64,000 bases of DNA from Sporolactobacillus sp. THM19-2 (GTDB taxonomy: Bacteria > Bacillota > Bacilli > Bacillales > Sporolactobacillaceae): assembly GCF_004153195.1 (NCBI RefSeq), contig NZ_SEMC01000002.1, positions 62,001 to 126,000 of the forward strand. Direction: 5' to 3'. Of the stretch, positions 2,936-58,211 are shown piece by piece; positions within the stretch are counted from its first letter, which is position 1; each line of letters starts with the position of its first letter. Under the pieces are notes generated by a model, which did no database searches, was not told the origin of the DNA, and worked only from the letters and a program-made list of their open reading frames with translations. The translations under genes and the position numbers were made by a program.

Positions 2936-3370
2936 ATTCGGAGTTCGGATCGACTTTTCTGGAGTTTGGACCGACTTTTCTATGATTATAGGACCGACTT
3001 TTTTCGGGTTCGGACCAACTTTTTCGGGATTCGGACCGACTTTTTCAGGTTTTGGATCGACTTTCTCGAGATTCGGATCAACTTTCCTGAGATTTGGACC
3101 GACTTCTCCTGGATTTGGTCCAACTTTTCTATGATTATAGGACCAACTTTTTTCGGATTCGGATCAACTTTCCTGAGATTCGGACCAACTTTTCTCGGAT
3201 TCGGACCGACTTTCCTGAGATTCGGACCAACTTTTCTCGGATTCGGACCGACTTTCCTGAGATTCGGACCAACTTTTCTCGGATTCGGACCGACTTTCCT
3301 GAGTTTCGGATCGACTTTTTTCGGGTTCGGACCAACTTTTTCGGGATTCGGTCCAACTTTCCTGAGTATC
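2936..3370. repeat. Tandem 21-bp array, family F (about 20 units)
   Basis: Twenty copies of a core GGA(C/T)C(G/A)AC followed by a T-tract, starting at 2947, 2968, 2991, 3012 and so on to 3350. Spacing is 21 bp throughout except two 23-bp steps (2968 to 2991, 3117 to 3140), both containing TCTATGATTATA. Units from about 3179 to 3304 form three copies of a 42-bp dimer alternating GGACCAAC and GGACCGAC. Several frames are open on both strands only because of the repetition, and the 23-bp steps break any single peptide frame, so I treat it as non-coding. It fills most of the 709-bp gap between spoIIID and the NERD gene. The rest (2694-2935) shows nothing I recognise. Confidence 0.95.
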
Positions 3371-3402
3371 AAAAAAAGAACTCCCTGGTACAAAGGGAGT
3401 TC
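3371..3402 (-). terminator. Intrinsic terminator of the first NERD gene
   Basis: Perfect 8-bp stem GAACTCCC/GGGAGTTC followed on the minus strand by a run of seven T, immediately after the stop codon and abutting the last repeat unit. Confidence 0.9.
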
Positions 3403-4416
3403 TCAGCGGATGCGTCTGTTCATTCTGGATCTATCGTACTGATCGAAGTATTCATGGGATGGCCTGACATAGTATTGACCGGCCCCGCGGCCGGAGCCGG
3501 CAATATTTATATTCATTTTTTGCGTAAGTCGGTGGATCAATTGTCGATTCTCTGTGCCCAGCCACCAGCGGCCCTGTTTATTGGTCATCGTCTCCCCGCA
3601 TAACAGAAAGTAGTCCAGAATCATCTGTTCGTGGGCCGTTCGAGATGCCGTGCCGCAGCGCGGGCAGACCCAGGTGGCATAGACACGCCGCATGCCGAAC
3701 AAATGGCAGTGCGGGCAGCGAACGCCGCGCAGCAGGTTGTCCGGAAGTATCTGGTATTTCTCCAGAATATTCAGCGGTGGATCAGTATGTTCGTCGAGCA
3801 GCCGGCGTTCGATCTGATTCAGGTGAGAAAGGGTCGGGCTGTGTTTGTATTTTTCCATCAGCATGGCTAATTTGAAGGGAACCTGTTCGGCGTGAATCAC
3901 TTTATCACGCACTTCCCGGGAATTACTCGGGTTTTCAATGATTGTTGATGAGCTGGAAATGATTACGAGCGGTTCGATGGGGATTTGTGGCAGGCGGCGC
4001 GCATGAAGCCAGACATGCATCATATCACGCTGGCGATGGACCTGGACGATTGGATTGGGGAATCCGTCCCGCCGTCCGTTTAACAGTCGGATCATTTGCC
4101 CGGTAGCGGATTCGAACACGAGCGTTCCTGCATAATTTTTCACTTCTAAAATTAAGGCGAAATTTTCTTTAATGAGAAGAACATCCATCTGGAAAAAATG
4201 ATTCATCGCGTTTTCCCGGAGACCATAAAAAATTCTGAAATCCTCAGTCAGAAGATCGAGGTAGTAAGCGAGATTCTGCTCGCCGCGCCATCCGGTCAGC
4301 CTTCTGGCATGCTCCTCCTCAATCGGCATACAACCGGACCATCCTGGCGGCAGATGATCGAGCAGGGCCCCGGCCGTGAGCAGACGCAGCGGGGCGTATT
4401 GCTTTTTGCATTCCAT
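3403..4416 (-). CDS. NERD-domain protein with C-terminal zinc ribbon (copy 1)
   Basis: 337-residue nuclease-related-domain (NERD) protein. The restriction-endonuclease-like core is visible: GWRGEQNLAYYL, then FFQMDVLLI and LILEVKNYAG, giving the D...ExK catalytic pattern. A zinc ribbon (CPHC then CPRC) lies in the C-terminal third, followed by a basic tail. No signal peptide or membrane helix is evident. The start ATG at 4414-4416 follows AAAGGAGG at 5 nt; an upstream in-frame start would add 21 unlikely residues. The substrate is unknown and NERD proteins are only presumed nucleases. A paralogue of the same build lies at 23291-24256. Each copy borders a 21-bp array. Confidence 0.85.
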   Translation of the reverse strand: MECKKQYAPLRLLTAGALLDHLPPGWSGCMPIEEEHARRLTGWRGEQNLAYYLDLLTEDFRIFYGLRENAMNHFFQMDVLLIKENFALILEVKNYAGTLVFESATGQMIRLLNGRRDGFPNPIVQVHRQRDMMHVWLHARRLPQIPIEPLVIISSSSTIIENPSNSREVRDKVIHAEQVPFKLAMLMEKYKHSPTLSHLNQIERRLLDEHTDPPLNILEKYQILPDNLLRGVRCPHCHLFGMRRVYATWVCPRCGTASRTAHEQMILDYFLLCGETMTNKQGRWWLGTENRQLIHRLTQKMNINIAGSGRGAGQYYVRPSHEYFDQYDRSRMNRRIR

Positions 4417-4534
4417 TTCTTCCTCCTTTCGGGGGCATGATGATCTAATTCGTCCTGCGGGCAGGAAATTCCTGCACAATTTTTCAATATTTGTGTGTCA
4501 ATCCAGTATAATGGAGAAAAAAAGAGGTGGCCTG

Positions 4535-4885
4535 ATGAATCTATTGCTTATTCTATTAAAGATTATCCTACTGTCCGTCGCCGAATCGCTCCTGACTGTC
4601 GGGCTGATTCTTGGCATCTTTCATCTAATCTTTCGAATCAGGCGCATGACTGAGGAAAAGTGGCACACATTTTTTAAAACGCGGACTTTCGGAAAACTGG
4701 CCATCATTTGCGGAGCAGCACTGGTGCTGAGTTCCGCCATTGTATGCGCTGCGGGATTCACTGTTTACCGGATCACTGGGACAGATCACGCCCCGATTCT
4801 GTCCGTCATCCCGGTCGTTCTGGCACTGCCCGACTTAGTCAAAATGGTTCGGCATCGCACAGAAATTCAACAAAACTTCCATTAA
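4535..4885 (+). CDS. Small membrane protein of unknown function
   Basis: 116 residues with two or three hydrophobic segments: residues 2-33 (LLLILLKIILLSVAESLLTV onward), about 54-72 (LAIICGAALVLSSAIVCAAG) and about 84-95. A basic loop (RIRR) follows the first. I do not recognise the family. The ATG at 4535 has GAGGTGG about 5 nt upstream. It is divergent from the NERD gene and convergent with the chromate transporter pair, sharing their terminator hairpin. Confidence 0.65.
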   Translation: MNLLLILLKIILLSVAESLLTVGLILGIFHLIFRIRRMTEEKWHTFFKTRTFGKLAIICGAALVLSSAIVCAAGFTVYRITGTDHAPILSVIPVVLALPDLVKMVRHRTEIQQNFH

Positions 4886-4913
4886 AAAAGCTCTTCCCAA
4901 AAGGAAGAGCTTT
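4884..4913 (-). terminator. Terminator of the chromate transporter pair
   Basis: 11-bp stem AAAGCTCTTCC/GGAAGAGCTTT with a CAAAA-like loop, and a T-run on the minus-strand side. It overlaps the stop codons of both convergent genes and probably works in both directions. Confidence 0.85.
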
Positions 4914-5445
4914 AGCCCATGAACAGGCCGCCGATCAGAAGGGCACCGGCGATAACAAAGGCCGGATGGAGCCGGAATCGCTGCATCAGCACGAAACTTG
5001 CGGCTCCGATCAGGATCATCGGGAGCCAGCCGGATTCTGCCTGCGACGTTGAAAAGAAGTCCCAGGCCATCATGCCGAGCATGACCACGATGATCGGACG
5101 GATCAGGAGCGTCAGCCATTTGACCTTCGGCGAATCTTTAAACCGGTACAGCAGGCGAAGCAGCACAATCAGCAGAATCAGCGAAGGGCCGACCGTCGCC
5201 AGCAAAGCGACGATTGAACCTGGGATGCCTCCGACTTCATAACCGATATAGCCGGCCATTTTTGTCGCAATCGGTCCGGGCAGTGAGTTACCAAGTGCCA
5301 GAACGTTACTGAATTCACTGACGCTCATCCAGTGATAGCGGCTGACGACTTCGTTTTCAATCAGCGGAATCGATGCCGGGCCGCCGCCGTAGCCAAGGAT
5401 CCCCGGGATGAAAAAGGCGAGGAAAAGTTGCCAGAGAAGGGTCAT
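4912..5445 (-). CDS. Half-size chromate transporter subunit (CHR domain), second of pair
   Basis: 177-residue integral membrane protein of the CHR (ChrA) family. The short form carries one domain and works as a pair to export chromate. Signature LGYGGGPASIPLIENEVV near the N-terminus and LALGNSLPGPIATKMAGY before the helices. Its start overlaps the upstream CHR gene by 4 nt (ATGA), so translation is probably coupled. The pair resembles B. subtilis ywrA/ywrB, which also sit near ywrC and ywrD. The anion actually exported is inferred from the family only. Confidence 0.9.
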   Translation of the reverse strand: MTLLWQLFLAFFIPGILGYGGGPASIPLIENEVVSRYHWMSVSEFSNVLALGNSLPGPIATKMAGYIGYEVGGIPGSIVALLATVGPSLILLIVLLRLLYRFKDSPKVKWLTLLIRPIIVVMLGMMAWDFFSTSQAESGWLPMILIGAASFVLMQRFRLHPAFVIAGALLIGGLFMG

Positions 5446-6059
5446 TTACTCCCGCCTCCCGCCTGTTTTTTCTGAGGCTTAATCAGGACAACAAGCAGCG
5501 TCAGTGCAATCAGAATCGCCGGATGAATATGGAGCACTTCCATCAGCACGAAGCTGACGGCGATCAGAATCAGACTGATCAGCCAGCCCAGCCCCTTTTT
5601 CGCGCTGAAAAAAAAGCGCCAGGTCAGCTGGGCCATCAGGACGCCAACGACAGGCAGCACAGCTTCCGTCATGCCGCGGACCCAGCGCTGATCCCGGAAG
5701 GCAGACAGAAAACTAAGCAGGCCGGTCAGCAGCAGGACCGTCGGCAGAACAACCGCAATCAGAGCGGTGAGCAGCCCGCCGAATTTTTTCAGCTTCCAGC
5801 CGACGTACCCGGCCAGTTTCGTATTGATCGGTCCGGGCAGCGCGTTGGCGATCGCCACAAGATCACCGAACTCCTCAAGCGTCATCCATTTATATTTTTT
5901 CACCACTTCCGCCTCGATCAGCGGAATGCCGGACGGCCCTCCGCCGAAACTGAGGATCGACGAGCGGAAAAAGGCGATGAAAATGTCTGTGTAACGTGTG
6001 GAAGCTGAACCCCTTTTATGCACAGGCTCAGGCTGACTCTCTGTTTCCAGCTGTGTCAC
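5442..6059 (-). CDS. Half-size chromate transporter subunit (CHR domain), first of pair
   Basis: 205-residue CHR-domain membrane protein, partner of the following gene. LSFGGGPSGIPLIEAEVVKK and IANALPGPINTKLAGYVG match the family signatures; three or four hydrophobic helices follow, ending in a basic tail (KPQKKQAGGGSK). The GTG start at 6057-6059 has AGGAGG about 10 nt upstream. The operon is short (two genes) and ends at the hairpin at 4884-4913. The 110 bp between this gene and the ABC transporter hold no clear terminator. Confidence 0.9.
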   Translation of the reverse strand: MTQLETESQPEPVHKRGSASTRYTDIFIAFFRSSILSFGGGPSGIPLIEAEVVKKYKWMTLEEFGDLVAIANALPGPINTKLAGYVGWKLKKFGGLLTALIAVVLPTVLLLTGLLSFLSAFRDQRWVRGMTEAVLPVVGVLMAQLTWRFFFSAKKGLGWLISLILIAVSFVLMEVLHIHPAILIALTLLVVLIKPQKKQAGGGSK

Positions 6060-6172
6060 TATAACAATACCTCCTGATTACAGAGCAAATATATTCTGCA
6101 CGTCCCCTATATGATTGCATCATCTGCCTGTCATTTTACCCAATGATCATCAAAGGCAGTATCTTTTTCAAA

Positions 6173-7159
6173 CTATACAAAATGACATGCAACCCAATGC
6201 CCGTTTTCTTTCTGTTCAAGAGACGGAACCTTCTTACGGCAGATATCTTTAGCAAAAGGACACCGCGTGTGGAATCGGCAGCCTTCAGGAATATTTATCG
6301 GACTCGGAACTTCTCCCTTTAAAATGATCCGCTCACGATTTGTCTGATTTACCTGGGGAATAGCTGATAACAATGCCTTTAGATAAGGATGAAGCGGATG
6401 ATCAAAAATCTCCGTCTTGTTTGCGAGTTCAACGATTTGTCCGAGATACATAACGGCAACCCGATCACTGATATGCTTCACCACAGATAAGTCATGGGAA
6501 ATGAAAATATATGTGAGCTGATACTCTTTTTTCAGCTTTTGCAGGAGATTTAAAATCTGAGCCTGCACCGAAACATCCAGTGCAGATACAGCCTCATCAC
6601 AAACAATCATTTTAGGTTTCACAGCCAGTGCTCTGGCAATACTGATCCTTTGCCTCTGCCCGCCGCTGAATTCATGGGCATAGCGGTTGTAATAGGTTTT
6701 TTTCAACCCGACTTGCTCCAACAGATTTTCCACATATGTTCTACTGTCTTTTTCATTTACAATATGATGCGTGTTTACAATTTCTTTCAGCATACTTCCA
6801 ATAGTCATACGAGGATTTAATGAACCAAACGGATCCTGAAAAACCATTTGCATATCTTTTCTTAGTTTACGGATCTGATGATTCTTTAATTTTGTCAGCT
6901 CTATGCCTTCAAATTTCACTGATCCATCGGTCGGTTTCTGGAGCTGGAGGATTGAGCGCCCCATGGTTGATTTACCGCAACCAGATTCTCCGACGATGCC
7001 GAGTGTCTCACCTTTATTTACATAAAAATTAACATCATCTACTGCTTTTACAGTCTGGTACCGAAAACCTGCCAAACCTTTTTTAATATAGAAGAATTTT
7101 TTTAAATCCTTTACTTCCAGAAGTTTTTCTGAAGATACTGCGTCAGCATTTATCGACAA
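6173..7159 (-). CDS. Oligopeptide/dipeptide ABC transporter ATPase (OppF/DppF type)
   Basis: 328-residue ATPase of a peptide importer at the inner membrane face. Walker [17 protein letters not shown] signature [14 protein letters not shown], Walker [13 protein letters not shown] and switch HDLSVV are all present. The C-terminal oligopeptide-specific extension carries the cysteine cluster [15 protein letters not shown] typical of OppD/OppF. Its start overlaps the OppD-like gene by 10 nt. Last gene of the ggt-transporter operon. Confidence 0.93.
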
Positions 7160-8142
7160 GGGGATTCACTCCCTTTCACAACTTTAGATGAATACAACCA
7201 GCAGTGCACTTCATGACCATCTGTAAATTCAGGTGGTTTTGCTTTGGCACATATATCCATAGCAAAAGGACAGCGTGATACAAACCGGCACCCTCTCGGC
7301 ATTTCATCAGGTCCCGGAACGGTGCCCTTAATTGTTGGAAGCACTTCCCTGGTCTCATCCAATCTGGGAATGGAGTTAATTAACCCCTTGGTATATGGAT
7401 GCTTCGGATCATTAAAGAGCTGTTTCGTATTACCATATTCAACAACTTGTCCGGCATACATCACAATCACTTTATCTGCTACTTCAGAGACTACCCCCAA
7501 ATCATGGGTAATTAAAAGCAGGGACATGTTAAACTGATCCTTTAAATTCTGAATTAATTCGAGAATTTGCGCCTGGATGGTCACATCAAGTGCCGTCGTC
7601 GGTTCATCAGCAATCAGTAAACCCGGATGACAAATAAGTGCCATAGCAATCATAACCCTCTGTCTCATTCCACCGCTTAATTCATGAGGATATTGGCCGT
7701 ATCTTTTTTCCGGAGACGGAATCCCTACTAATTTGAGCATATGAATTGTTTGCTCTTTCGCTTCATGTTTACTTATCCTGGTATGGATACGTAAGACTTC
7801 CGCGATCTGGTGTCCAATCGAATGCAGGGGATTTAGTGCGGTCATCGGTTCCTGAAAAATCATTGAGATTTCTTTACCGCGAATTTTACTTAACTCTTTT
7901 TGACCCTGACGGCTTATGTCCTTGCCCTTATACAGAATATGTCCATTAATAATTTTACCGCCACTGGGAAGCAGTCCCATGATAGCAAGAGATGTCAAAC
8001 TTTTCCCGCAACCAGATTCACCAACAATACATAACGTCTGGCCTTCTTCTAGCACAAAACTTATGTCATCTATGACCGAAGTCCGTCCATAGCTTTGCTT
8101 AAAACCAATATTTAAATGGTCAACAGTCAAAATATTATTCAT
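7150..8142 (-). CDS. Oligopeptide/dipeptide ABC transporter ATPase (OppD/DppD type)
   Basis: 330 residues. Walker [15 protein letters not shown], signature ELSGGMRQRVMIAMAL, Walker B LLIADEPTTALDVT and the H-switch THDLGVV are intact. The C-terminal cysteine-rich segment GCRFVSRCPFAMDIC is that of the Opp/Dpp group. It pairs with the OppF-like ATPase to power the two permeases encoded just upstream. Confidence 0.93.
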   Translation of the reverse strand: MNNILTVDHLNIGFKQSYGRTSVIDDISFVLEEGQTLCIVGESGCGKSLTSLAIMGLLPSGGKIINGHILYKGKDISRQGQKELSKIRGKEISMIFQEPMTALNPLHSIGHQIAEVLRIHTRISKHEAKEQTIHMLKLVGIPSPEKRYGQYPHELSGGMRQRVMIAMALICHPGLLIADEPTTALDVTIQAQILELIQNLKDQFNMSLLLITHDLGVVSEVADKVIVMYAGQVVEYGNTKQLFNDPKHPYTKGLINSIPRLDETREVLPTIKGTVPGPDEMPRGCRFVSRCPFAMDICAKAKPPEFTDGHEVHCWLYSSKVVKGSESPCR

Positions 8143-8155
8143 ACCCGCACCTCGA

Positions 8156-9061
8156 TTACTTTAGCTTCGGATCTAACCAGTCATGGATTCCGTCTCCAAA
8201 TACATTGATGGAAATGACAGCCAGGAAGATAAACAAGCCTGGAAAGATTGATATCCACGGTGCCTGTGAAATATATCCCTGCCCTTCGGCAAGCATAGCT
8301 CCCCAGCTCGGTGTCGGTGGTTGTGTCCCTAACCCCAGATAGCTTAATGAAGCTTCAGCTATGATAGCCGCGGCAACGTTCAAAGTGGCCTGTACGATAA
8401 GCGGACCAAGTATATTGGGAAAAATGTGTCTGAGCATAATCGAAAAGTTTCGTAATCCTGATGCTCTTGCTGCTATAACATATTCCCGTTCTCTTTGCGA
8501 AAGCACCTCACCACGTGCCAGTCGAATAAAGTATGGTGTAAACACAAGTCCAATGGCCATCATTGCGTGGCTCAAGCTTGGCCCAAGGACCGCTGCAATA
8601 GTGAGTGCGAGAACAAGTGATGGAAAAGCCAGCATCGCATCAGTCAGTCTCATAATGATAAACTCATCCCAGAATCCCCTGAAATATCCTGACAGAACCC
8701 CCAGTGGAATACCGATAAGTAAAGCAATTCCAACAGATATCAGCCCGGCTTTTAATGATACCTGGGCTCCGAATATAATTCTTGACAGCAAATCTCTTCC
8801 TAAAGTATCTGTTCCAAACCAATGATCCGCAGATGGTGGCTGCAACGCCTGGGCATAATTCTGCTTTGTCGGATCAAAAGGCGCGATTAGTGGCGCAAAA
8901 ACTGCCATAATAATCAAAATAGAAACAAATATCCCGCCGAATACCGCAAGCTTATTATTCAATAACTTTGAGAAATGTCCGGTTCGTTTTCGCTTTATTT
9001 CCTCAGTCTTCTGAGTAATATGATTCTCGACATGTTCATTATTCAGTAAAGGTTTGCCCAT
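8156..9061 (-). CDS. Peptide ABC transporter permease (OppC/DppC type)
   Basis: 301-residue inner-membrane permease. A cytoplasmic N-terminal tail rich in charged residues precedes the first helix (about 40-60). The binding-protein-dependent transport signature (EAA loop) is seen as EYVIAARASGLRNFSIMLRH, with the C-terminal AEASLSYLGLGTQPP motif of DppC proteins. The start abuts the OppB-like gene (9061 shared base). Confidence 0.92.
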   Translation of the reverse strand: MGKPLLNNEHVENHITQKTEEIKRKRTGHFSKLLNNKLAVFGGIFVSILIIMAVFAPLIAPFDPTKQNYAQALQPPSADHWFGTDTLGRDLLSRIIFGAQVSLKAGLISVGIALLIGIPLGVLSGYFRGFWDEFIIMRLTDAMLAFPSLVLALTIAAVLGPSLSHAMMAIGLVFTPYFIRLARGEVLSQREREYVIAARASGLRNFSIMLRHIFPNILGPLIVQATLNVAAAIIAEASLSYLGLGTQPPTPSWGAMLAEGQGYISQAPWISIFPGLFIFLAVISINVFGDGIHDWLDPKLK

Positions 9062-10017: not shown

Positions 10018-10034
10018 AGTCGTCCTCCCCGCTG

Positions 10035-20310: not shown

Positions 20311-20410
20311 CATGCTTATACTAGGGGAGCCGGCGGCCGGCTGAGAGTAAGACACTAGGTCTTTGACCCTTTAAACCTGATCTGGGTGATGCCAGCGTAG
20401 GGAAGTATGC
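20311..20410 (+). promoter_or_regulatory. TPP riboswitch (THI element)
   Basis: The conserved aptamer is complete: ACTAGGGGAGCC, GGCTGAGAGTAAGAC, TTTGACCCTTTAAACCTGAT, CTGGGTGATGCCAGCGTAGG and GAAGT closing helix P1. It senses thiamine pyrophosphate and precedes the thiW-thiD-thiM-thiE operon with a terminator just downstream, so it should switch off transcription when TPP is high. Confidence 0.97.
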
Positions 20411-20425
20411 TTCAATCAGATGATA

Positions 20426-24256: not shown

Positions 24257-24527
24257 ACATTCACCTCTTTCTATAAGGTAAGATTCGACCCTGTTTGACC
24301 CTGTTTACAAGATTCGACCTGAAGGAACAAAATCCTTTTCCTTTTTCCCATTTTTACAGTTCATTTTATTTTCAGTTCAACCTTTGTTCACATTTACAGG
24401 ACTGGATTCTTGCGTGAAAGCTGTGGATCTGGATCAACCAGGAAAAATGTTGGCCTGGGGGTGGTATATTTCTGCAAGGGCTGGGTTTTTCAGTTGGTGG
24501 ATGGAATTACGGCCTGGCGGGCCGCAA
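24257..24527. other. Gap between second NERD gene and repeat array
   Basis: Contains short internal repeats (AAGATTCGACC twice, CTGTTTGAC/CTGTTTACA near 24280-24320) and a degenerate start of the TTCAGC array (TTCAGT at 24489). The NERD promoter is presumably here; no confident -10/-35 pair was found. Confidence 0.4.
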
Positions 24528-25413
24528 TTCAGCCGGGCGGTCCTCCTTTTCAGCCGGGTTGACCCACTTTTCAGCCAGATCCCCACTTTTTTCAGCCGGC
24601 GGGCCGGAATTCAGCCGGATCTCATCATTATTCAGCCGGGTGGACCCACTTTTCAGCCAGATCCCGAATTTTTTCAGCCGGGTCTCCTCTTTTTTCAGCC
24701 GCCCCCGAATTTTTTCAGCCAGCGCGCCGGAATTCAGCCGGGTACCGGCACTTTTCAGCCGGGTTTCCACTTTTTTCAGCCGCTTCTGAATTTTTTCAGC
24801 CAGCGGGCCGGAATTCAGCCGGTCCTCAACTTTATTCAGCCGGGTGGACCCACTTTTCAGCCGGGTCTCCTCTTTTTTCAGCCGCTCCCGAATTTTTTCA
24901 GCCAGCGCGCCGGAATTCAGCCGGGTACCGGCACTTTTCAGCCGGGTTTCCACTTTTTTCAGCCGGGTCCCCACTTTTTTCAGCCGCTCCTGAATTTTTT
25001 CAGCCGCCGGACCGGAATTCAGCTGGATCTCATCATTATTCAGCCGGGTCGCGGCACTTTTCAGCCGGGTGGTCCTCTTTTTCAGCCAGATCCCCACTTT
25101 TTTCAGCCGCTCCCGAATTTTTTCAGCCGGCGAGCCGGAATTCAGCCGGGTACCGGCACTTTTCAGCCGGGTTTCCACTTTTTTCAGCCGCTTCTGAATT
25201 TTTTCAGCCAGCGGGCCGGAATTCAGCCGGATCTCAGCATTATTCAGCCGAGCAGACCTCTTTTTCAGCCGGGTCCCCACTTTTTTCAGCCGCTCCTGAA
25301 TTTTTTCAGCCAGCGGGCCGGAATTCAGCCGGTTCTCAACTTTATTCAGCCGGGTGGACCCACTTTTCAGCCGGGTCTCCTCCTTTTTCAGCCGCTCCTG
25401 AATTTTTTCAGCT
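24528..25413. repeat. Large TTCAGCC array, family Q (44 units)
   Basis: I counted 44 TTCAGC motifs from 24528 to 25407. Steps are mostly 21 bp, but each super-unit ends with a 20-bp and then a 19-bp step (seven pairs), giving complete super-units of 81, 102 or 123 bp, all divisible by 3. Consequently one minus-strand frame stays open from a GTG at 25421 to 24507 (304 codons), with heptads such as RLKKVGTRLKSAGTRLNSG that could form a coiled coil. No ribosome site precedes that GTG, and the plus strand is open over 403 codons too, so coding is unproven. Confidence 0.93.
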
Positions 25414-25458
25414 GGCACCACAAGCGGCTGGCTGCCACCACAATTTTCATCCGGCGCA

Positions 25459-25494
25459 CAAAAAAGGAAGAGCCAGTTGGCTCTTCCTTTTTTT
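25459..25494 (-). terminator. Terminator of the atp operon
   Basis: 15-bp stem AAAAAGGAAGAGCCA paired with TGGCTCTTCCTTTTT across a 2-base centre, T-rich on both sides, directly after atpC. The repeat array starts 46 bp beyond it. Confidence 0.92.
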
Positions 25495-25502
25495 CGATAT
25501 CG

Positions 25503-25931
25503 TCATACTTTCGGAACCGTGTCATCAATCGCGGCTGTTTCCAGGCGAAGTTCGGCGCGTTTCTGTTTCAGACGGGCTTCAAAGTAACCTTCTGAGGTTT
25601 CGTGAAGTCTGTCGAGTGCGGCATCGGCTTCAGCCTTAGCCTTTTTGGCACGTTCAACGTCGATTTGATCTTTCATTTCGGCTGCTTCCGAAAGAATCGT
25701 GATGCGGTCGCGGCTAACCTGGATGAAGCCACCATGGACCGCGGCGTAGTCTGTGATTTTTTCATCTTCGTGTTTGAGACGAACAAGAGCGATCTGGAGC
25801 GGTGCGACAATTGGCATGTGATGGGGCAGGATGCCCATGTCGCCGTTTGCCGACCGGACGCAAACCATGTGGACGTCTCCTTCATACACTTTGCCTGCGG
25901 GTGTGACGATCTCCGTATGCACAGTGCTCAT
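25503..25931 (-). CDS. atpC: ATP synthase epsilon subunit
   Basis: 142-residue F1 epsilon subunit coupling rotation and regulating ATP hydrolysis. N-terminal beta-sandwich (VHTEIVTPAGKVYEGDVHMV, DMGILPHHMPIVAPL) and C-terminal helix pair (AKKAKAEADAALDRLHE). 40 bp after atpD; last gene of the operon. Confidence 0.96.
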   Translation of the reverse strand: MSTVHTEIVTPAGKVYEGDVHMVCVRSANGDMGILPHHMPIVAPLQIALVRLKHEDEKITDYAAVHGGFIQVSRDRITILSEAAEMKDQIDVERAKKAKAEADAALDRLHETSEGYFEARLKQKRAELRLETAAIDDTVPKV

Positions 25932-35162: not shown

Positions 35163-35300
35163 ATTCAGCCCATTGCTCCGTTTATCCGGCCGAGATGCAC
35201 CATGATTCAGCCTATTGCGCCGTTCATCCGGCTGGAACGCCCCATGATTCAGCCTATTGCGCCGTTCATCCGGCCGGAATGCACCATGATTTCAGCCGGA
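35163..35300. repeat. Three 42-bp repeats of the TTCAGCC type (family Q)
   Basis: Near-identical 42-bp units ATTCAGCCTATTGCGCCGTT... at 35163-35204, 35205-35246 and 35247-35288, then a degenerate copy. The unit is twice 21 bp and contains TTCAGCC and TTCATCCGG. It occupies the glyA-ywlG gap (34973-35389), 48 bp beyond the ywlG terminator; the remaining gap presumably holds the glyA promoter, not clearly identified. Confidence 0.9.
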
Positions 35301-35347
35301 TGATCTGTTGATCCGGGCGCGGCCCTGAATTTCCGCCGGAACGCACG

Positions 35348-35388
35348 AAAAAGCAGGAGAACGGATTGGGATTGACTCCGTTCTCCTG
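35348..35388 (-). terminator. Terminator of ywlG
   Basis: 12-bp stem CAGGAGAACGGA/TCCGTTCTCCTG with an 11-base loop, T-run on the minus strand. Confidence 0.9.
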
Positions 35389-35389
35389 T

Positions 35390-35968
35390 TTATAAACAGG
35401 TGCGGCCCGAGGTTTCTTTTTCCGGATAGACCGCGCGTTCGCCGCCGATCAGCTTCGGGCGGGTGCGGGCCATGACAAGATGGGCCTCGCCGATCTGCCT
35501 GACCTGACTTCTGACCGGTACGGCTACGTGTTTCAGATGCATGCCGATCAGCGTGTCACCGATATCCAGTCCGCCATCGGCACGGATAAATTCCACAACG
35601 ACCGGATGGGAAAGATGTTCCCAGGCATAGGCGGCCATCGAGCCTCCGGCGTGTGGAATCGGGCGGACGGTAACAGGATCGAAATGCCGTTGTTCGGCGA
35701 CTTCCCGGTCCAGCACAAGGGCCCGGTTCAGATGCTCGCAGCACTGAAAGGCAAAATGTACACCTGTCCGGTCGTGGCAGGTTTTTATTGCCTGATATAT
35801 GGCGGCAGCGATCTCCGGCGAACCGGATGTGCCGATTCGGTTGCCGCGTACTTCACTTGTACTGCAGCCAAGAACCAGTAAATGGCGTTCATCAAAAGGC
35901 ATAGCCGCGGCCAGATCGTTCAGCGCGCGGCCAACTTCATCTATGAGCTGCTGACTGTAATTTTCCAT
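35390..35968 (-). CDS. ywlG: YwlG family protein (DUF436, TIGR01440)
   Basis: About 192-residue protein of unknown function conserved in Firmicutes. LLVLGCSTSEVRGNRIGTSGS, CCEHLNRALVLDREVAEQR, PHAGGSMAAYAWE and DTLIGMHLKHVAVPVR are characteristic. Three successive ATG codons begin the frame (up to 35974); the third is best spaced from AAGG. Upstream of glyA as in B. subtilis, but ywlE and ywlF are missing from the cluster here. Confidence 0.88.
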   Translation of the reverse strand: MENYSQQLIDEVGRALNDLAAAMPFDERHLLVLGCSTSEVRGNRIGTSGSPEIAAAIYQAIKTCHDRTGVHFAFQCCEHLNRALVLDREVAEQRHFDPVTVRPIPHAGGSMAAYAWEHLSHPVVVEFIRADGGLDIGDTLIGMHLKHVAVPVRSQVRQIGEAHLVMARTRPKLIGGERAVYPEKETSGRTCL

Positions 35969-36101
35969 CATCATGTCCTTCCCAGAGTACAGGCGTTCAT
36001 TTCTATTACAATTATAACAGCTTGCGCCACTTTGGGCAGGATTATGTCATTTCCCGGGAAATTTTGGCGGAATCCACAGGGCGGCGTCGCAGGAAGGCTG
36101 A

Positions 36102-41261: not shown

Positions 41262-41707
41262 GTACCGGATTCGGATCGACTTTTCGTGGAGTTGGACCGA
41301 CTTTTTCCGGATTGGGATCAACTTTTCAGGAATTCGGATCAACTTTTTCCGGATTTGGACCAACTTTTTCCGAAGATTCGGACCGACTTTTTTCGGGTTT
41401 GGACCGACTTTCCTGTGGTTCGGACCGACTTTTTCCGGATCCGGTCCAACTTTTCGAGAATTCGGACCGACTTTTTTCGGGTTTGGACCGACTTTTTCCG
41501 GATTTGGACCAACTTTTTCCGAAGATTCGGATCAACTTTTTCCGGATTCGGACCAACTTTTCACGGATTTGGACCGACTTTTCTGTGGTTCGGACCGACT
41601 TTTTTCGGGTTTGGACCAACTTTTTCCGGATTTGGACCAACTTTTCTGTGATTCGGACCAACTTTTCTGTGATTCGGACCGACTTTTTCCGGATTCGGAC
41701 CGACTGT
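41262..41707. repeat. Tandem 21-bp array, family F (21 units)
   Basis: Twenty-one GG(A/T)(C/T)C(G/A)AC cores from 41273 to 41697 followed by T-tracts. All steps are 21 bp except two of 23 bp (41357 to 41380, 41506 to 41529), both carrying CCGAAGATTC. Same orientation and consensus as the array at 2936-3370. It lies between the rpmE terminator and the tdk ribosome site. Confidence 0.95.
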
Positions 41708-41785
41708 CCGGCTTCCGGAAGTGGTTATACAAAAAGCAGACAGGAGATCCTGCCTGCAGATTCATCTATTTCATAAATCGGGCAA

Positions 41786-41827
41786 ATAAAAACGGCTGAT
41801 TCCGCCGGGCAGCGAAAAGTGCCGTTT
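41786..41827 (-). terminator. Terminator of rpmE
   Basis: AAACGGC/GCCGTTT outer stem with a 24-base internal region and T residues on the minus strand, 15 bp after the rpmE stop. Confidence 0.65.
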
Positions 41828-41842: not shown

Positions 41843-42088
41843 TTATTTGATATTGTATTTCCGTTTAAACCGATCGACACGTCCGCCTTTGTCTGCAAAT
41901 TTCTGGCGGCCTGTGTAGAATGGATGTGAGTCGGAACTTACTTCGACAGTGATTAGCGGGTATTCGTTACCGTCTTCCCATTTAACTGTCTGATTGGATG
42001 TTTTGGTTGATCCGCTCAAAAACTTAAAACCGGTACTTGAATCCATAAATACAACCTTATGATAGTCGGGATGGATACCTGGTTTCAA
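41843..42088 (-). CDS. rpmE2: Ribosomal protein L31, type B
   Basis: 81-residue zinc-free (type B) L31. [19 protein letters not shown] lacks the CxxC pair of type [21 protein letters not shown] is the conserved end. I chose TTG at 42086-42088 (AAAGGAG 9 nt upstream) because the family starts at MK-GIHP; an ATG three codons earlier touches the ribosome site. It sits in the rho-rpmE-tdk position where B. subtilis has the zinc-binding type. Confidence 0.92.
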
Positions 42089-42249
42089 TTCATTCATCTC
42101 CTTTGCGCCCTGATTAATCTTCCAAACCAGAGTCAGTTCATTATGCACAACGAGTATTATATCAGCCGGATAAGCAATTTGCAAGCTGACGTTTGAGATG
42201 AGGATGGGTTCGGCGGCCCTTCCTCACATTTTTCCTGTACTTACCGCTG

Positions 42250-49504: not shown

Positions 49505-49872
49505 TGAAAACATCCTTTCTTTCGTCCATTGCCCGCATCCGGGCACCTGCCAGGTTCCTGTAAAGAATACAGGCTCCGCGCGTGAAAAGTTATACACTAC
49601 ATACAATAATCCGTATTTATTTGAAAAGCAAGCCCGGGGGCTGAAAAACAGGTATCCGGTTTTCCCCGGTTTTTTCTGCCGGTCTCAGCAGGTGAGCGTT
49701 TTCCCCGCTGTGAATGCTCTTGCGCCCTGTCAAACAGGCGAATGACCTTTTTTCCATCTCCTGCATATGATATCTGAAATATCATGACCCTCTCGCCCTT
49801 TCATAGAGGATCGTGTCCTTTAAACCACAGACAGTTGCAAGCGTGTCAATCTGAATAGAAAGGGTTGTTCAC

Positions 49873-51306: not shown

Positions 51307-51440
51307 CGCATTCGGGTAAAAAAGGGCTATCAGTGCCTTTCGGGACCGGTTTTTTTGGGAAAAAGAGGGCAACAAAGCTGCAGCGCCTGCGACTTCGTTT
51401 TTCTTCAGGTAGGCATCAGTTATCCGGCCGGGCCCCTTCA

Positions 51441-51487
51441 TTCAGCTGTTCCTCCGTCTGTTTCAGCCGGACCCGCCTAATCAGCCG
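51441..51487. repeat. Short TTCAGC cluster (family Q remnant)
   Basis: TTCAGC at 51441 and 51462 (21 bp apart) and a TCAGCC at 51481, in the same orientation as the larger arrays. Too short to be sure it is more than chance. Confidence 0.5.
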
Positions 51488-51590
51488 ATCTGAATGAAAT
51501 GCGCCGGAAATCTATACATTACTGAAATCAGGATATATTATGAGTATACACTCTCCGGAAAGGCTTCCGGAAACACAAGGGGACATACGC

Positions 51591-52799: not shown

Positions 52800-52804
52800 A
52801 ATAG

Positions 52805-52849
52805 AAAATCCGGCGTTCCCACAGTTTCGAGGGAACGCCGGATTTTTTC
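52805..52849. terminator. Bidirectional terminator between cls and argS
   Basis: Perfect 14-bp stem AATCCGGCGTTCCC/GGGAACGCCGGATT, 10-base loop, T-rich on both exit sides; separates two convergent genes. Confidence 0.95.
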
Positions 52850-52852
52850 AGA

Positions 52853-54523
52853 TTACATTTGATCCGGCGCATGAACACCGATCAGATCCATACCATTTTT
52901 TAATGTTATCCGCACGGCCTTCATCAGAGCGACACGGGCTTTACTGAGCGGTATGTTCGTCTCATCAAGCACTTTTTCCGCATTATAAAAGCTGTGAAGT
53001 TTCGATGCGAGATCAAACAGATACGACGGGATATGCTGAATCGCAAGTTTTGCCGCACTGCCCGCAACCACCGACGGGAACTCACCGAGCTGCTTCAGCA
53101 GATCAATTTCCTTTTCGCCGGACAGTAAGCTCAGATCGATCGACTCAGAGGGCTTTGTATCGAGGCTTTCCGCCCGTTTCAACATACTCGTGATTCTTGC
53201 AAAAGCATACTGAACATAATAAACCGGATTTTCGTTGGAACGGGAAATTGCAAGATCCAGATCAAAGTCCAGATGCGTGTCCGCACTCCGCATGGCAAAG
53301 AAATAACGTGCGGCATCGACGCCGACGTCTTCCATCAGTTCACGCATCGTTACCGCTTTACCGGTTCGCTTGCTCATCTTAACCTTTTCCCCGTTCTTAA
53401 ACAGGTTGACGAGCTGAATAATCTGTACATTCAGCTTATCGGGATCATAGCCAAGTTCGGCCAGCGCGGCCTTCATTCTCGGGACATACCCGTGGTGATC
53501 GGCACCGAGTACGTCGATCAGGCGGTCAAACCCGCGGTCAAACTTATCTTTATGATAGGAAATATCCGGGGTAAAGTAGGTATAGGTACCGTCTGATTTA
53601 ATCAGCACGCGGTCTTTGTCGTCTCCGTGTTCCGAGGTCTTCAGCCAGACGGCGTTGTCCTTTTCAAATGTTTCCCCTTTATCCTTCAGCATGTCCAGTG
53701 CCGCTTCAACTTTGTGTGTTTCATACAGTGAACGCTCCGAATACCAGCGATCGAACGTCACCCGGAAGTCGGCCAGATCCTTCCTGATGCCCCGCATCAG
53801 ATGATCCACACCAAAGTTGCGGAAGAAACGCAGGCGTTCTTCTTTCGGTTTTGCTTCAAGCGTGCCGCCATATTTCTCCACGAGCTGATCGGCGAGTTCG
53901 ATTATATCCTTGCCATGGTAGCCGTTTTCAGGAATTTCGGCATTTTTCCCAAGCGCCTGCAGGTAGCGTGCCTCAAGAGAAACAGCGAGATTCGTGATCT
54001 GATTGCCACCATCATTAATATAGTATTCCGCACTGGCCCTGTAGCCGGCTTTGTTCAGCAGTTTACAGAGCGTATCACCGACCGCCGCGCCGCGCGCATG
54101 ACCGAGATGCAGGCTGCCGGTCGGGTTCGCCGAAACAAACTCAACAAGCACTTTCTCACCGCCACCGCTGCCCGAAGCGCCGTAGGCATCCCCCGCTTTG
54201 ATAATCGCCGGAATCAGATCCGTCAGATACTGATTATCAAGGAAAAAGTTGATAAAGCCCGGCCCTGCCACCTCAATTTTGCGGATATGACCCTTCTTCC
54301 TGTCAAAATGGGCGACCAGTTCTTCAGCTATTTTTCGTGGTGCCATCTTGGCGATCCGGGCCAGCTGCATCGCCATATTCGTCGCAAAATCGCCGTGTGC
54401 TTTATCCTTCGGCACTTCCAGCACAATGTCCGGAATCTGCTCTTCAGATGCAAGTCCTGCTTTCAGCACGGCCTGTTTTATTTCTTCTTTCAATTGTTCT
54501 TTGACCTGTTCGACAATTGCCAT
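52853..54523 (-). CDS. argS: Arginyl-tRNA synthetase
   Basis: 556-residue class I synthetase. [20 protein letters not shown] contains the HLGH (HIGH-type) signature, and [20 protein letters not shown] holds the KMSK-type motif. N-terminal Add-1 domain and C-terminal DALR anticodon-binding domain ([20 protein letters not shown]) are present. GGAGGG before the ATG. Downstream of ywiB; no T-box motif upstream. Confidence 0.98.
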
Positions 54524-54707
54524 GTTTTACCCTCCAAAAAATACATACAGAACCACCTCAGACTGCGGGCTGTCTTTATCACTTCTGCTGCTTTTCATTG
54601 CCTATTTTCCGCGGAACGATTCGTAGGCTTCCAATATATGGATTCCAGAGCCCCGGCTCGCTGCCTGCAGGCGTCCCGCGCCCTTCCGCTCCAGTCAGCC
54701 TGAAACA

Positions 54708-55115
54708 TTATAATCGCTTAAAGCTCCATGTGATCCGGAAGGTCCCGGCATCTTCTCCCTGAATGTTCAGCCGGTAGACCAGACCGGCTGCGCCGGATCC
54801 GGACTCCGGACTCCAGGTCGCCGTGATGCTTTCAGCAGCCGCTTCCGTAGCCAGGTTGCCAGACGGTGTCCCAAGCTCCCCGTGCAGGCTTTTCCCAAGT
54901 TTCAGCGGCTGCCTCAGCGGATACTGACCTCTGCGCCTGATCAGTGCTTCACCCTTCGTAAACTTAATGATATATTGTGAAGTGCCTTCTGCACGGTATG
55001 TCAGATAAAAGCCATCCGTTCCCTCTTTCAGCCGGCCACGAAGCGACATGCGAAGCGGGCTGCGGCTGCCGGGTATCCGGCTGACCCATTCAATTTCAAT
55101 CTCTTGAGACGTCAC
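54708..55115 (-). CDS. ywiB: YwiB family protein (DUF1934)
   Basis: 135-residue calycin-like beta-barrel protein of unknown function. Family features: GFYLTYRAEGTSQYIIKFTK, GEALIRRRGQYPLRQPLKLG, YRLNIQGEDAGTFRITWSF. The GTG at 55113-55115 follows AGGAGG at 7 nt; a frame-open GTG ten codons upstream has no ribosome site. Adjacent to argS as in B. subtilis. Confidence 0.88.
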   Translation of the reverse strand: MTSQEIEIEWVSRIPGSRSPLRMSLRGRLKEGTDGFYLTYRAEGTSQYIIKFTKGEALIRRRGQYPLRQPLKLGKSLHGELGTPSGNLATEAAAESITATWSPESGSGAAGLVYRLNIQGEDAGTFRITWSFKRL

Positions 55116-55284
55116 GCTCTGGCCTCCTGCGAAATAAAACCGCACTTTTCCATACTCATATAACTATAAAATATTGGACAGCTCCGGGCAAGGCTAATCC
55201 GCCTTTTTTCGCATAAATCCGTTAAAAAGACCTGTGGCCGGCCGCCTTCATCATTTTTACCTGCTGATGCGTTTTCCAGACCAT

Positions 55285-55314
55285 GTTTATAAAAAGGGGG
55301 ACTGAACCATACTG
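55285..55314 (+). promoter_or_regulatory. Forespore (sigma-F/G-type) promoter of pbpG
   Basis: GTTTA (55285-55289), 18 bp, CATACTG (55308-55314): fits the sigma-G pattern GHATR-N18-CATWMTA with two mismatches; read as sigma-F (N15, then AACCATACTG) it lacks the GG. B. subtilis pbpG is a forespore gene. Confidence 0.55.
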
Positions 55315-55347
55315 GATAGCAGAATAGTCCATGAGGAGGTGCTGCCG

Positions 55348-57393
55348 ATGCGTTTTATCTCCTGGGTACGGAAAAGAAGTCCGGCGTTTCGCCTGGCGCA
55401 GCTTGGCGGTGCAGTGATCTGCGCCACACTTGCTGCGGCCGGTCTCCTTGTTCTTGCTGCGAAACTGGCAGGGCCGATGGATTTTCCCGCCTCGGCTCCG
55501 GCGACATTTTATGACAATCGCGGCAAACTGATTGGCAAATGGGAGAGCGCTAACCGGCAATGGGTAGCAATCGACCGTATGTCGCCATCGGTGAAACTGG
55601 CGACTCTGGCCATTGAAGACCGGCACTTTTTTCACCATAACGGGTTCGATCTGAAGCGTATTGCCGCCTCGGCACTGATCGATCTGCGTACCCTGTCCAA
55701 GAAACAGGGAGCGAGCACCATTACGATGCAATATGCGAAGAACCTGTTCCTGACGAATGAAAAAACGTGGCTGCGCAAAGTCGCTGAAGTTTTTTACACC
55801 CTCCGTCTTGAAATGAATGAGCCGAAAAAGAAAATTCTCGAAGGGTACCTGAACACAATCTATTATGGGCACGGGGCCTATGGCATCGAAGCCGCTGCGA
55901 AAATCTATTTTAATAAAAAAGCGGGGGATCTCTCGCTTGCCGAATCCAGTATGATCGCCGGAATTCCGAACGGGCCGGGCGTCTTTTCCCCTTTTCTCAA
56001 TTATCACAAAGCAAAAGAACGGCAGCGCGTAGTGCTGAAGACGATGGTCGACAGCGGATTCCTCTCTAAAGAACGGGCAGATGCCGCCTATCGGGCGGAT
56101 CTGCATCTGGCGGATGGTGAACGGAAACCGGCTGATCGACCAGCCCCTTATTTCCAGGATGCCGTACGTAAAGAGTTGACTGAGAAACTGCATTTTACGA
56201 CGAAAGAACTCGATTCAGGCGGGCTGAACGTCTATACGACGCTCGATGCAGAGACGCAGCAATCGGCCGAATACTGGGTTAAGAAAACCATTCCGGAGCA
56301 ATCGGCGATCCAGACGGCACTCATTGCCATGGATCCGAAAACAGGCGGGGTCGTGGCCATGGTAGGAGGGCGTCACTATAAAGAGAGTCCATTTAACCGC
56401 GCGGTAACCGCCAGACGGACACCAGGGTCTGCAATGAAACCGTTTCTCTATTATGCGGCACTGCGGAACGGGTTTACTCCGGCTACACTGCTGAAGAGTG
56501 AGCCGACATCCTTTACATACGATGACGGGCGGAGAACGTATGCGCCGGACAACTTTGGCGGGTATTATGCGAATGGGCCGATCACGATGGCTCAGGCCCT
56601 CGCGCTGTCCGATAATGTTTTCGCTGTAAAAACGCACCTTGCGATCGGTATGGAAAAAATGATTGCCGCCGCCCGGCGTGCGGGTATCACCAGTCCGCTC
56701 GCCGCCATCCCGTCACTTGCACTCGGATCCCGGCCGGTCAGTGTCATCGAGATGGCACGGTCCTATGCCACTCTGGCAAATGAAGGAGCGCGGATCCGGC
56801 CGGCACTTGTGACCAAAGTGACCGACCGGGAAGGAAAGGTGCTCTATGCCTGGCTGCCGGAACACAGGCAGGTACTGAACCGTCAGACTTCTTTTGTTCT
56901 GTCACAGATGATGACCGGAATTTTCGATAAGCGGCTCAACGGCTATACGAAAGTGACCGGCGCGCAGGTGGCCGGGCAGCTGACACATAAAATCGCCGCA
57001 AAAACCGGGTCGACCTCTTCCGACAGCTGGATGGCCGGATTCACGCCGGAGCTGGTCAGTGCGGTCTGGGTCGGCTATGACAAGGGGAAAACGATCAGCA
57101 CCTATCCGGAAACCGGTTATGCCAAAGACATCTGGTCGCATTTCATGCAGAGCGCGCTGGATGGCCAGCCGCGGAACAGTTTCGATCCGCCCAAGGGCGT
57201 CGTCAGCGTCAGCATCGATCCAAAAACCGGATTACGTGCCGGCGGGACATGCCCCGGCCGGCCTACCTGGTTTGTCAAAGGTACAGAACCGACAACCTAT
57301 TGCGACGGCAAGGAGCGCCACAAAGAACAGGGAAAGAAGAAAAAAGTGGAGAAAAAAAGCTTATTTGAGCATCTGTTCCAGTGGTGGCGCTGA
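55348..57393 (+). CDS. pbpG: Bifunctional penicillin-binding protein 1A family (PbpG/YwhE)
   Basis: 681-residue class A PBP with one N-terminal helix (about 20-40). GT51 glycosyltransferase: LAIEDRHFFHHNGFD (catalytic Glu90), GASTITMQYAKNLFL, KKILEGYLNTIYYGHGAYGI. Transpeptidase: Ser361 in GSAMK, Ser421-Asp-Asn, Lys552-Thr-Gly. Lys-rich C-terminus. The ATG at 55348 follows GAGGAGG at 8 nt. In B. subtilis PbpG acts in spore cortex and germ-cell-wall synthesis; the promoter above supports the same role. Confidence 0.94.
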   Translation: MRFISWVRKRSPAFRLAQLGGAVICATLAAAGLLVLAAKLAGPMDFPASAPATFYDNRGKLIGKWESANRQWVAIDRMSPSVKLATLAIEDRHFFHHNGFDLKRIAASALIDLRTLSKKQGASTITMQYAKNLFLTNEKTWLRKVAEVFYTLRLEMNEPKKKILEGYLNTIYYGHGAYGIEAAAKIYFNKKAGDLSLAESSMIAGIPNGPGVFSPFLNYHKAKERQRVVLKTMVDSGFLSKERADAAYRADLHLADGERKPADRPAPYFQDAVRKELTEKLHFTTKELDSGGLNVYTTLDAETQQSAEYWVKKTIPEQSAIQTALIAMDPKTGGVVAMVGGRHYKESPFNRAVTARRTPGSAMKPFLYYAALRNGFTPATLLKSEPTSFTYDDGRRTYAPDNFGGYYANGPITMAQALALSDNVFAVKTHLAIGMEKMIAAARRAGITSPLAAIPSLALGSRPVSVIEMARSYATLANEGARIRPALVTKVTDREGKVLYAWLPEHRQVLNRQTSFVLSQMMTGIFDKRLNGYTKVTGAQVAGQLTHKIAAKTGSTSSDSWMAGFTPELVSAVWVGYDKGKTISTYPETGYAKDIWSHFMQSALDGQPRNSFDPPKGVVSVSIDPKTGLRAGGTCPGRPTWFVKGTEPTTYCDGKERHKEQGKKKKVEKKSLFEHLFQWWR

Positions 57394-57454
57394 ACAGGCA
57401 TGCGCGATGCGCCGGAATAACAGAATACTGGCCCGGTGCAGAGGCGCGCTGCGT

Positions 57455-57503
57455 TTTGGGGCGTTGGGGCGTTGGGGCGTTGGGCGTTGGGGCGGTTGGG
57501 CGG
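57455..57503 (+). repeat. G-rich 8-bp tandem repeat
   Basis: Several copies of TTGGGGCG with small indels just after pbpG and just before the TTCAGCC array. Runs of three to four G on the plus strand could form a G-quadruplex. Confidence 0.7.
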
Positions 57504-57505
57504 GA

Positions 57506-57782
57506 TTCAGCCGATTTGTCCGGTTTTTCAGCCGATATGCTCATGAATTCAGCCGGATCACGCGATGATTCAGCCGACTACCGTGGTTTTTCAGCCAGTA
57601 CGCTAATGGATTCAGCCGGTCCTCACAGTTTTTCAGCCACGCAGGTTTTTAGCCGGTATACTCATGATGATTCAGCCAGTTCACACGGTTTTTCAGCCGA
57701 TCCATGCAGTGATTCAGCCGGTGTGCTCATGAATTCAGCCGGTCCTCACAGTTTTTCAGCCGGTTCACCTGGCTTTTCAACC
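57506..57782. repeat. TTCAGCC 21-bp array, family Q, first of a pair
   Basis: About thirteen units starting TTCAGCC or close variants, 21 bp apart (for example 57506, 57527). Alternating inner sequences such as GGTCCTCACAGTTT and ATGCTCATGAA recur. Ends in a CACGCACACACTGCGCGC segment that is repeated near 58124. Confidence 0.9.
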
Positions 57783-57832
57783 ACGCACACACTGCGCGCC
57801 GCGGTCACCGGTTGAGGGGCATCCTAACTTGA

Positions 57833-57866
57833 TTGAGGCTTTCCGAACAGGAAAGCCTCCTTTTTA
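57833..57866 (+). terminator. Intrinsic terminator (first of a duplicated pair)
   Basis: GAGGCTTTCC/GGAAAGCCTC 10-bp stem with a five-base loop, then CTTTTT. Probably ends pbpG readthrough. Confidence 0.85.
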
Positions 57867-57884
57867 GATCGATTAATGCGGTTA

Positions 57885-58124
57885 ATCAGCCCGTATGCTC
57901 ATGAATTCAGCCGACTACCGTAGCTTTTCAGCCGGTACGCTCATGAATTCAGCCGGATCACGCAGGTTTTTAGCCGGTATACTCATGATGATTCAGCCAG
58001 TTCACACGGTTTTTCAGCCAGTGTGCTGATGGATTCAGCCGGATCACGCACGTTTTCAGCCGATCCATGCAATGATTCAGCCAGTGTGCTCATGAATTCA
58101 GCCGGTCCTCACAGCTTTTCAGCC
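57885..58124. repeat. TTCAGCC 21-bp array, family Q, second of a pair
   Basis: About eleven units of the same 21-bp type and orientation as 57506-57782, sharing blocks such as TTTTTAGCCGGTATACTCAT with it, and again ending in a CACGCACACACTGCGCGC-like segment and a near-identical terminator. The two blocks look like a segmental duplication. Confidence 0.9.
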
Positions 58125-58179
58125 ACGCACGCACACACTGCGCGCTGCGGTCACCAGATGGGGGGGCAACTACCTTTGA

Positions 58180-58211
58180 TTGAGGCTTTCCGGACAGGAA
58201 AGCCTCTTTTT
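58180..58211 (+). terminator. Intrinsic terminator (second of a duplicated pair)
   Basis: GAGGCTTTCC/GGAAAGCCTC stem followed by TTTTTC; differs from the hairpin at 57833 only in the loop. Lies between the array and the convergent ywhD. Confidence 0.85.

Follow-up and report, generated by a model that had tools for sequence, protein, structure and literature searches.

The 64,000-nucleotide stretch of Sporolactobacillus sp. THM19-2 analyzed here (contig NZ_SEMC01000002.1, positions 62,001 to 126,000; hereafter the window) carries arrays in which a short word is repeated in one direction every two helical turns, next to the terminators of genes. Comparison with other Bacillales points to these arrays being an undescribed family of protein-binding DNA elements, the word differing between species and the layout remaining constant. 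Overall, they are best read as sites for a protein that would assemble along one face of the helix, probably as a polar barrier behind terminators, a reading given a probability of about 0.37. Binding of the arrays by a putative protein is in itself quite probable, and a barrier function, supposing such a protein, is rated somewhat below even.

The candidate binder would recognize a non-palindromic word of 8-10 bp and assemble cooperatively along one helix face, so that a spacing of 20-21 bp (two turns) and a single direction would be required of its sites. The observed spacing with its multiples, the unidirectional non-palindromic words and the unconstrained spacers are the pattern that such assembly would produce. 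The rows would be maintained directly behind intrinsic terminators at the 3' ends of genes, an association suggesting a barrier or insulator at this position; the likeliest role would be that of a second-line polar barrier, halting or insulating RNA polymerase as the gene ends. Since several words coexist in a genome, there would have to be more than one such protein, or a set of paralogues whose specificities diverge.

The spacing rule extends to other Bacillales and is not restricted to the two words of this genome that the first-pass annotation of the window described: Tandem Repeats Finder (TRF) detected 21-bp arrays with other words at the ywlG loci of S. vineae, S. putidus, Sporolactobacillus sp. 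THM7-7, two Terrilactibacillus and several Bacillaceae, and the same architecture occurs with many words in other genera. Among 64 noncoding TRF arrays in 68 loci, the smallest period was 20-21 in 41 and 40-42 in five. In the same 68 loci, autocorrelation of 8-mers picked out 79 noncoding regions with distance 21 and 29 with distance 20, over a background of about 8-12 regions at distances 8-19 and 22-38. The strictest test demanded runs of at least three identical 7-mers spaced by d or d+1 in the noncoding DNA of 80 Bacillales loci; it returned 43 regions at 20/21, 33 at 21/22, 8 at 19/20 and none in all other bins from 10 to 38, with further peaks at 39-42, 50-53 and 58-63. The 20/21 chains were found in 25 of the 80 loci, Fictibacillus supplying 21 of the 43 regions. 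Random stretches, several of them shorter than 20 kb, contained 20/21 chains in 0 of 20 samples of the order and 0 of 20 of the phylum; their 8-mer pairs at distance 21 were mildly above neighboring distances (5 and 7 regions), which could stem, for instance, from small coding regions that were missed. In one 50-kb stretch of E. coli no chain was detected at any spacing tested. At rpmB loci (given for 30 of 120 matching genomes) the exact test found a chain in one of 30, and a second array, in L357, was visible only through its tail. The density of the element varies strongly by locus and genus, the ywlG zone being rich.

Two observations on repeats in these loci are recorded separately. Bacillus solitudinis carries a 1.7-kb array of about 84 units (L154, 12801-14507) whose word, TTGCTGAAAA, resembles GGCTGAAAA of the window, and a second repeat class with a period of 52-53 bp (about five helical turns) is present in L112, L128, L130 and L141, with an internal palindrome in L141.

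The position of the arrays relative to genes was assessed on the 43 regions minus five touching a locus edge, that is, on 38 arrays that are not all independent, orthologous arrays being counted in several species. Their gene context was co-directional in 24, convergent in 14 and divergent in none, whereas background placements (edges included) were 64% co-directional, 14% convergent and 14% divergent. A terminator of the upstream gene lay within 120 bp in 26 of 38 arrays (background 22%) and within 200 bp in 32 (background 30%). The arrays sit at gene 3' ends, and the enrichment beside terminators, which had been set beforehand as a check on the first-pass proposal, was found at the 120-bp distance.

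Words and spacers evolve differently. Columns were more unequal than under a uniform-rate null in 25 of the 31 arrays with at least four units, and six did not reject it; the best eight columns averaged 0.92-1.0 in pairwise identity and the remaining columns 0.29-0.72, a contrast that is partly built in, detection requiring repeated 7-mers. Between orthologous Fictibacillus arrays, all detected in both genomes by their repeated words, five gap-free comparisons from three array families gave 4 differences in 200 word positions vs 52 in 240 spacer positions (p=7e-11). The spacers between words measure 12-14 bp. A similar comparison (0.068 vs 0.194) between the 3.0-Mb draft genome that holds the window (G000, contigs unordered) and a genome of the same species (G010) was set aside because it aligned non-orthologous units and marked words by similarity.

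The word itself is replaced. On our reading, the same terminators at different Fictibacillus loci are followed by different words at a spacing of about 21 bp. Downstream of a gene which we take to be upp-like, the word is TGAGCGAAA in L137, L138 and L153, TGAGCGTAA in L119, CAGGTGRWN in L144, CTGCGTGGA in L143, TATGTGCC in L115 and TTCGATAATAAAA in L116, an array being absent from L129. Behind ywlG, AACTYGTGGATTCA was found in nine Fictibacillus loci (with as few as two units in L129) and CCGCAAGTAA in L116, and no array is evident in L115. A terminal tail, GAACGTGTAATAAATAAAAGAACACGTACCG and its variants, is common to arrays with the words TGAGCGAAA, TGAGCGTAA, CAGGTGG and TGCGTGRAA. Individual arrays thus exchange their word without losing the architecture.

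In the window, arrays were located by TRF (2937-3366, 24527-25412, 35163-35297, 41265-41705, 57611-57764 and 57886-58085, with periods of 21 or multiples of 21) and then extended and confirmed by reading the sequence, which places the final pair at about 57506-57782 and 57885-58124, wider than the TRF limits, and reveals a remnant near 51441. Hairpin coordinates are those of a terminator scan. The features are as follows.

2937..3366, minus strand: array of about 20 units, word AAAGTYGRTCC, 21-bp period (TRF; 20 words counted)
3368..3404, minus strand: hairpin resembling an intrinsic terminator, belonging to the NERD-domain gene and 8 bp away from the last word (terminator scan)
3403..4479, minus strand: upstream gene, NERD domain protein (Pfam PF08378)
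24527..25412, minus strand: array of about 42 units, word GGCTGAA, 19/20/21-bp spacing (TRF; 42 words counted)
25455..25490, minus strand, also 25463-25498, plus strand: hairpin behind atpC with T-runs on both strands (terminator scan)
25503..25931, minus strand: upstream gene atpC, ATP synthase epsilon (Pfam PF02823)
35163..35297, minus strand: short array, 42-bp period, degenerate TTCAGCC/TTCATCC units (TRF, sequence)
35346..35388, minus strand, also 35354-35396, plus strand: hairpin behind the DUF436 (YwlG) gene (terminator scan)
35390..35974, minus strand: upstream gene, DUF436 (Pfam PF04260)
41265..41707, minus strand: array of about 21 units, word AAAGTYGRTCC (TRF; 21 words counted)
41728..41757, minus strand: hairpin with a T-run, 21 bp away from the array (terminator scan)
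41843..42184, minus strand: upstream gene rpmE, ribosomal protein L31 (Pfam PF01197)
51441..51490, minus strand: remnant of about three degenerate TTCAGCC units (sequence)
57506..57782, minus strand: array with 12 exact copies of GGCTGAA and further degenerate units (TRF, sequence)
57835..57867, plus strand: hairpin with T-run on the plus strand, copy 1 of a tandem duplication (terminator scan, alignment)
57885..58124, minus strand: array with 10 exact copies of GGCTGAA and further degenerate units, second copy in the duplication (TRF, alignment)
58182..58214, plus strand: hairpin, copy 2 of the duplication (terminator scan, alignment)
58231..58782, minus strand: gene on the 5' side of the motif, YwhD family (Pfam PF08741)

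The six arrays, the remnant and the single orientation within the window had all been described in the first-pass annotation and were confirmed. In the main arrays the hairpin adjoins the 5' side of the word and is followed by a minus-strand gene. A hairpin was also found for each of the six, as claimed, but the two arrays and hairpins at 57.5-58.2 kb align as one tandem duplication of array plus hairpin, and therefore the window holds five independent cases, with a NERD protein, atpC, DUF436/ywlG, rpmE and ywhD as upstream genes; the counterpart in G010 is a single array. The hairpins placed at 57833 and 58180 exist, but their T-runs face the plus strand, between convergent genes, instead of the minus strand, and the hairpin assigned to the 41.7-kb array at 41786 gives way to the closer terminator listed above. 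The Pfam hits among the genes flanking the window arrays point to housekeeping or sporulation functions, or to none that is known.

Two words are used, AAAGTYGRTCC (on the minus strand) at 2937-3366 and 41265-41707, and GGCTGAA (also on the minus strand) at 24527-25412, 57506-57782 and 57885-58124, degenerate at 35163 and 51441. With at most one mismatch, GGAYCRACTTT has 51 sites in the window vs 4.7 +/- 2.1 in 100 shuffles. The two had been called unrelated, which does not hold entirely: GGACCCACTTT, one mismatch from the former word, lies within some TTCAGCC units of the array at 24.5 kb (three sites). An array word of Sporolactobacillus is GGACCAACTTTT. Beside these arrays, the 8-bp microsatellite TTGGGGCG occupies 57456-57502, immediately ahead of the array at 57.5 kb; in the array at 24.5 kb, 20- and 19-bp units pair up and several higher-order periods are multiples of three. 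The sole Rfam match at gathering score in the window is a thiamine pyrophosphate (TPP) riboswitch at 20313-20420.

According to a neutral explanation, the arrays would be minisatellites generated by slippage and enlarged by chance behind terminators, where insertions are harmless. The different unit numbers at the same loci of G000 and G010 and the higher-order periods at 24.5 kb, which show tandem duplication, agree with this; however, slippage gives no reason for 21 bp over other lengths, within-array spacers are far less alike than words, and words are conserved between species. Chance is thus a decidedly unlikely account, and the preference for a DNA-level function over chance minisatellites already voiced in the first-pass annotation is supported by the 20-21 bp spacing, the kept words and the drifting spacers.

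Elsewhere in the G000 draft, TTCAGCC triples number 71 on the plus and 8 on the minus strand (backwards-read control, 3 and 0) and GGAYC pairs 57 and 2 (control, 0 and 0), so that polarity is not uniform beyond the window. In G010 the arrays lie at the same loci. The ywlG protein of G000 shares 78% identity with its Sporolactobacillus vineae counterpart, the nearest named match. Within the genus, the GGAYC pair occurs in 3 of 15 genomes (59, 54 and 1 matches) and the TTCAGCC triple in 4 of 15 (79, 105, 2 and 1, the single match having another period); triples are present in 2 of 150 genomes of the order and 3 of 149 of the phylum, G000 counted in both, and the TTCAGCC word is therefore lineage-specific. 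Phage contigs gave no match to the GTGGACAGTA pair and 42 stretches with the TTCAGCC triple. G010 also contains two CRISPR-like arrays with different repeats and a period of 65-68 (C1, 1.340-1.344 Mb and 1.590-1.597 Mb).

Polarity was examined on 15 arrays of G010 (one, at 280,057, by TRF only), whose origin is placed at 762-795 kb by skew and gene strand, and on 12 arrays of F. phosphorivorans (G308). The motif is on the strand of its 5'-side gene in 12 of 15 and 11 of 12 (23/27) and co-directional with replication in the same proportions (12/15, 11/12; 23/27). Six arrays break one or both rules: G010 1,540,959 and G308 2,414,718, the latter behind a 62-aa gene that is presumably L28-like, follow a head-on gene; G010 947,942 and G308 506,100 follow replication and not the gene; and G010 280,057 and 958,084 follow neither. 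On 27 arrays the replichore rule and the gene rule cannot be separated. The fixed polarity along a replichore reported initially was recovered as co-direction in 23 of 27, but gene strand accounts for it equally well, and a replication or segregation mark is therefore not required. That the arrays would serve replication, segregation or nucleoid organization finds agreement in the 15 G010 arrays (C1 280,057-1,541,580 and 3,213,723), which lie within 0.8 Mb of the origin, in the origin-proximal half, neither word pattern matching between 1.55 and 3.21 Mb of that genome. Nevertheless, the Fictibacillus word family is also found at 1.24, 1.54 and 2.41 Mb, toward the terminus, and words differ between arrays of one genome, making such a mark unlikely.

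The arrays of G308 bring in mobile DNA. The pattern GTGGACAGT-N(9-14)-GTGGACAGT matches 24 times in this genome, all at exactly 21 bp, and not at all in three other genomes. Of the twelve arrays that were read, eleven come from stretches selected for that purpose and one from a further nine stretches; they span 72-114 bp with four to six units, GTGGACAGT being spaced at exactly 21 in 48 of 51 cases and at 42 in three, and in eight of the 12 a same-strand terminator lies within 64 bp on the 5' side. Five of 12 share the terminal unit GTCGACAGTAAG, and about 75-95 bp beyond four of the GTGGACAGT arrays (C10 83056, 506288 and 3293967; C17 13171) there is an inverted companion array, TAATCTGTCC-like, at 21 bp with 3-5 units by exact chain. 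These look like dispersed copies of 4-6 units, keeping a mobile-element origin open. The arrays could be transposase sites, in the style of IS21, Tn7 or Mu, of a non-autonomous element settling behind terminators; repeated transposase sites are described at IS21 ends (PMC11208146). Of 17 array-bearing genomes searched, 12 have an IstA (NF033546) match, 10 of them over the cut-off, and in Terrilactibacillus (L284) both IS21 ends (1338 and 3861) hold GGCTCAAT, the array word of that genome, which may be chance but counts in favor of a transposon origin. On the other side, G308, G312, G313, G316 and G317, all array-bearing, gave no IstA match (E<=0.001; Tn7/Mu-type transposases were not searched), none of the remaining IS21 loci checked yielded an array word as end repeat, and likely IS21 end repeats (noncoding 8-mers) are spaced by 22 (L285, L288) or 24 (L287, L290, L307), one IS21-side repeat at 21 (L302) standing beside a sub-threshold IstA hit. 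There is no gene between the paired Fictibacillus arrays, no empty site is shown, and arrays at the same site differ in word yet have similar downstream flanks. Transposable-element ends are thus a possible but doubtful source. G010 carries two IS21 transposase copies with identical scores (C1 115797 and 1590694).

An element acting in RNA, with sites in read-through transcripts, or one encoding short repeat peptides (21 nt being 7 codons) is very improbable. At least one frame is free of stops in four of five window arrays; that at 24.5 kb has two (+0 and -0) over 885 bp, its G010 counterpart also has two, and one of six folded arrays reached z=-2.3. For the other five, folding does not exceed that of shuffled sequence (z between -1.4 and +1.3). 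Among the 12 G308 arrays, 11 of these short spans have some open frame, but none is shared by all and the best is open in six. The 20/21/42 rule fits turns of B-DNA. A local complementary target of the words was considered and rejected: reverse-complement words numbered 7 vs 2.8 +/- 1.9 within 500 bp and 32 vs 27.2 +/- 7.1 within 5 kb. Same-strand words are enriched within 500 bp (18 vs 3.1), as expected from array edges and neighboring arrays.

Several points weigh against a protein assembling on the arrays as a barrier behind terminators. Arrays are missing from 55 of the 80 loci examined; 4 of the 27 genome-wide arrays of G010 and G308 have no co-oriented gene on the 5' side; and the way in which arrays entered the word/spacer comparison favors conserved words, the word behind a given terminator being a different one in other species. 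The candidate binder is still putative, and the words per genome go beyond a single one: G308 has at least six, two of which precede the same conserved tail, which is awkward for one binder. This number of words motivates another idea, that of a diversifying system of chromosomal words, in which homogeneous phased sets of an arbitrary word would be renewed in concert and swapped between species under one architecture. One form would be a decoy bank: rows of iteron- or transposase-like sites, placed harmlessly behind terminators, would titrate the initiator of an incoming plasmid or the transposase of an incoming transposon; this would explain arbitrary, fast-changing words, and one hint is the presence of GGCTCAAT in both arrays and IS21 ends in Terrilactibacillus. 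Such a system is improbable, if conceivable.

An element defined by its geometry, that is, a word every two turns, one-way, behind a terminator, escapes homology-based annotation. If the arrays are protein-bound barriers, they would represent a second layer of transcription ending in Bacillales; if they are decoys, they would be an unrecognized record of conflict with mobile DNA. Under either reading the words provide a direct handle for fishing out the proteins.

No description of such arrays was found in the open full-text literature; subscription papers were outside this scope and an earlier description is possible. Several known systems share part of the design. IS21 ends likewise have repeated words, and in L284 the end word is the array word, but likely end repeats are spaced by 22-24, other copies have other words and five array-bearing genomes have no IS21 match. 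The TAACTGA heptamers of Beggiatoaceae likewise repeat a short word directly, with 2-43 copies, in intergenic DNA; unlike the arrays, they use one fixed heptamer, which in the main genome lies mostly a few nucleotides upstream of start codons and for which a post-transcriptional role is proposed (PMC4679880). Variable-number tandem repeats (minisatellites) are also tandem units of strain-variable number, whereas the arrays share mainly the word, with spacers far less alike and one period dominant. CRISPR arrays have long repeats and long spacers, in contrast with words of 8-10 bp at a period of 20-21 bp (cas genes were not searched). REP/BIME elements, which occur at gene 3' ends as the arrays do, are dispersed extragenic repeats bound by proteins such as gyrase; their units are palindromic and 20-40 bp long, while those of the arrays are direct, non-palindromic and strictly phased, with a word that changes between species. 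Plasmid iterons are direct repeats about two turns apart, in few copies and with a word cognate to one protein; the arrays have the same direct repeats spaced by two helical turns, but are chromosomal, occur at many loci behind terminators and use several words per genome.

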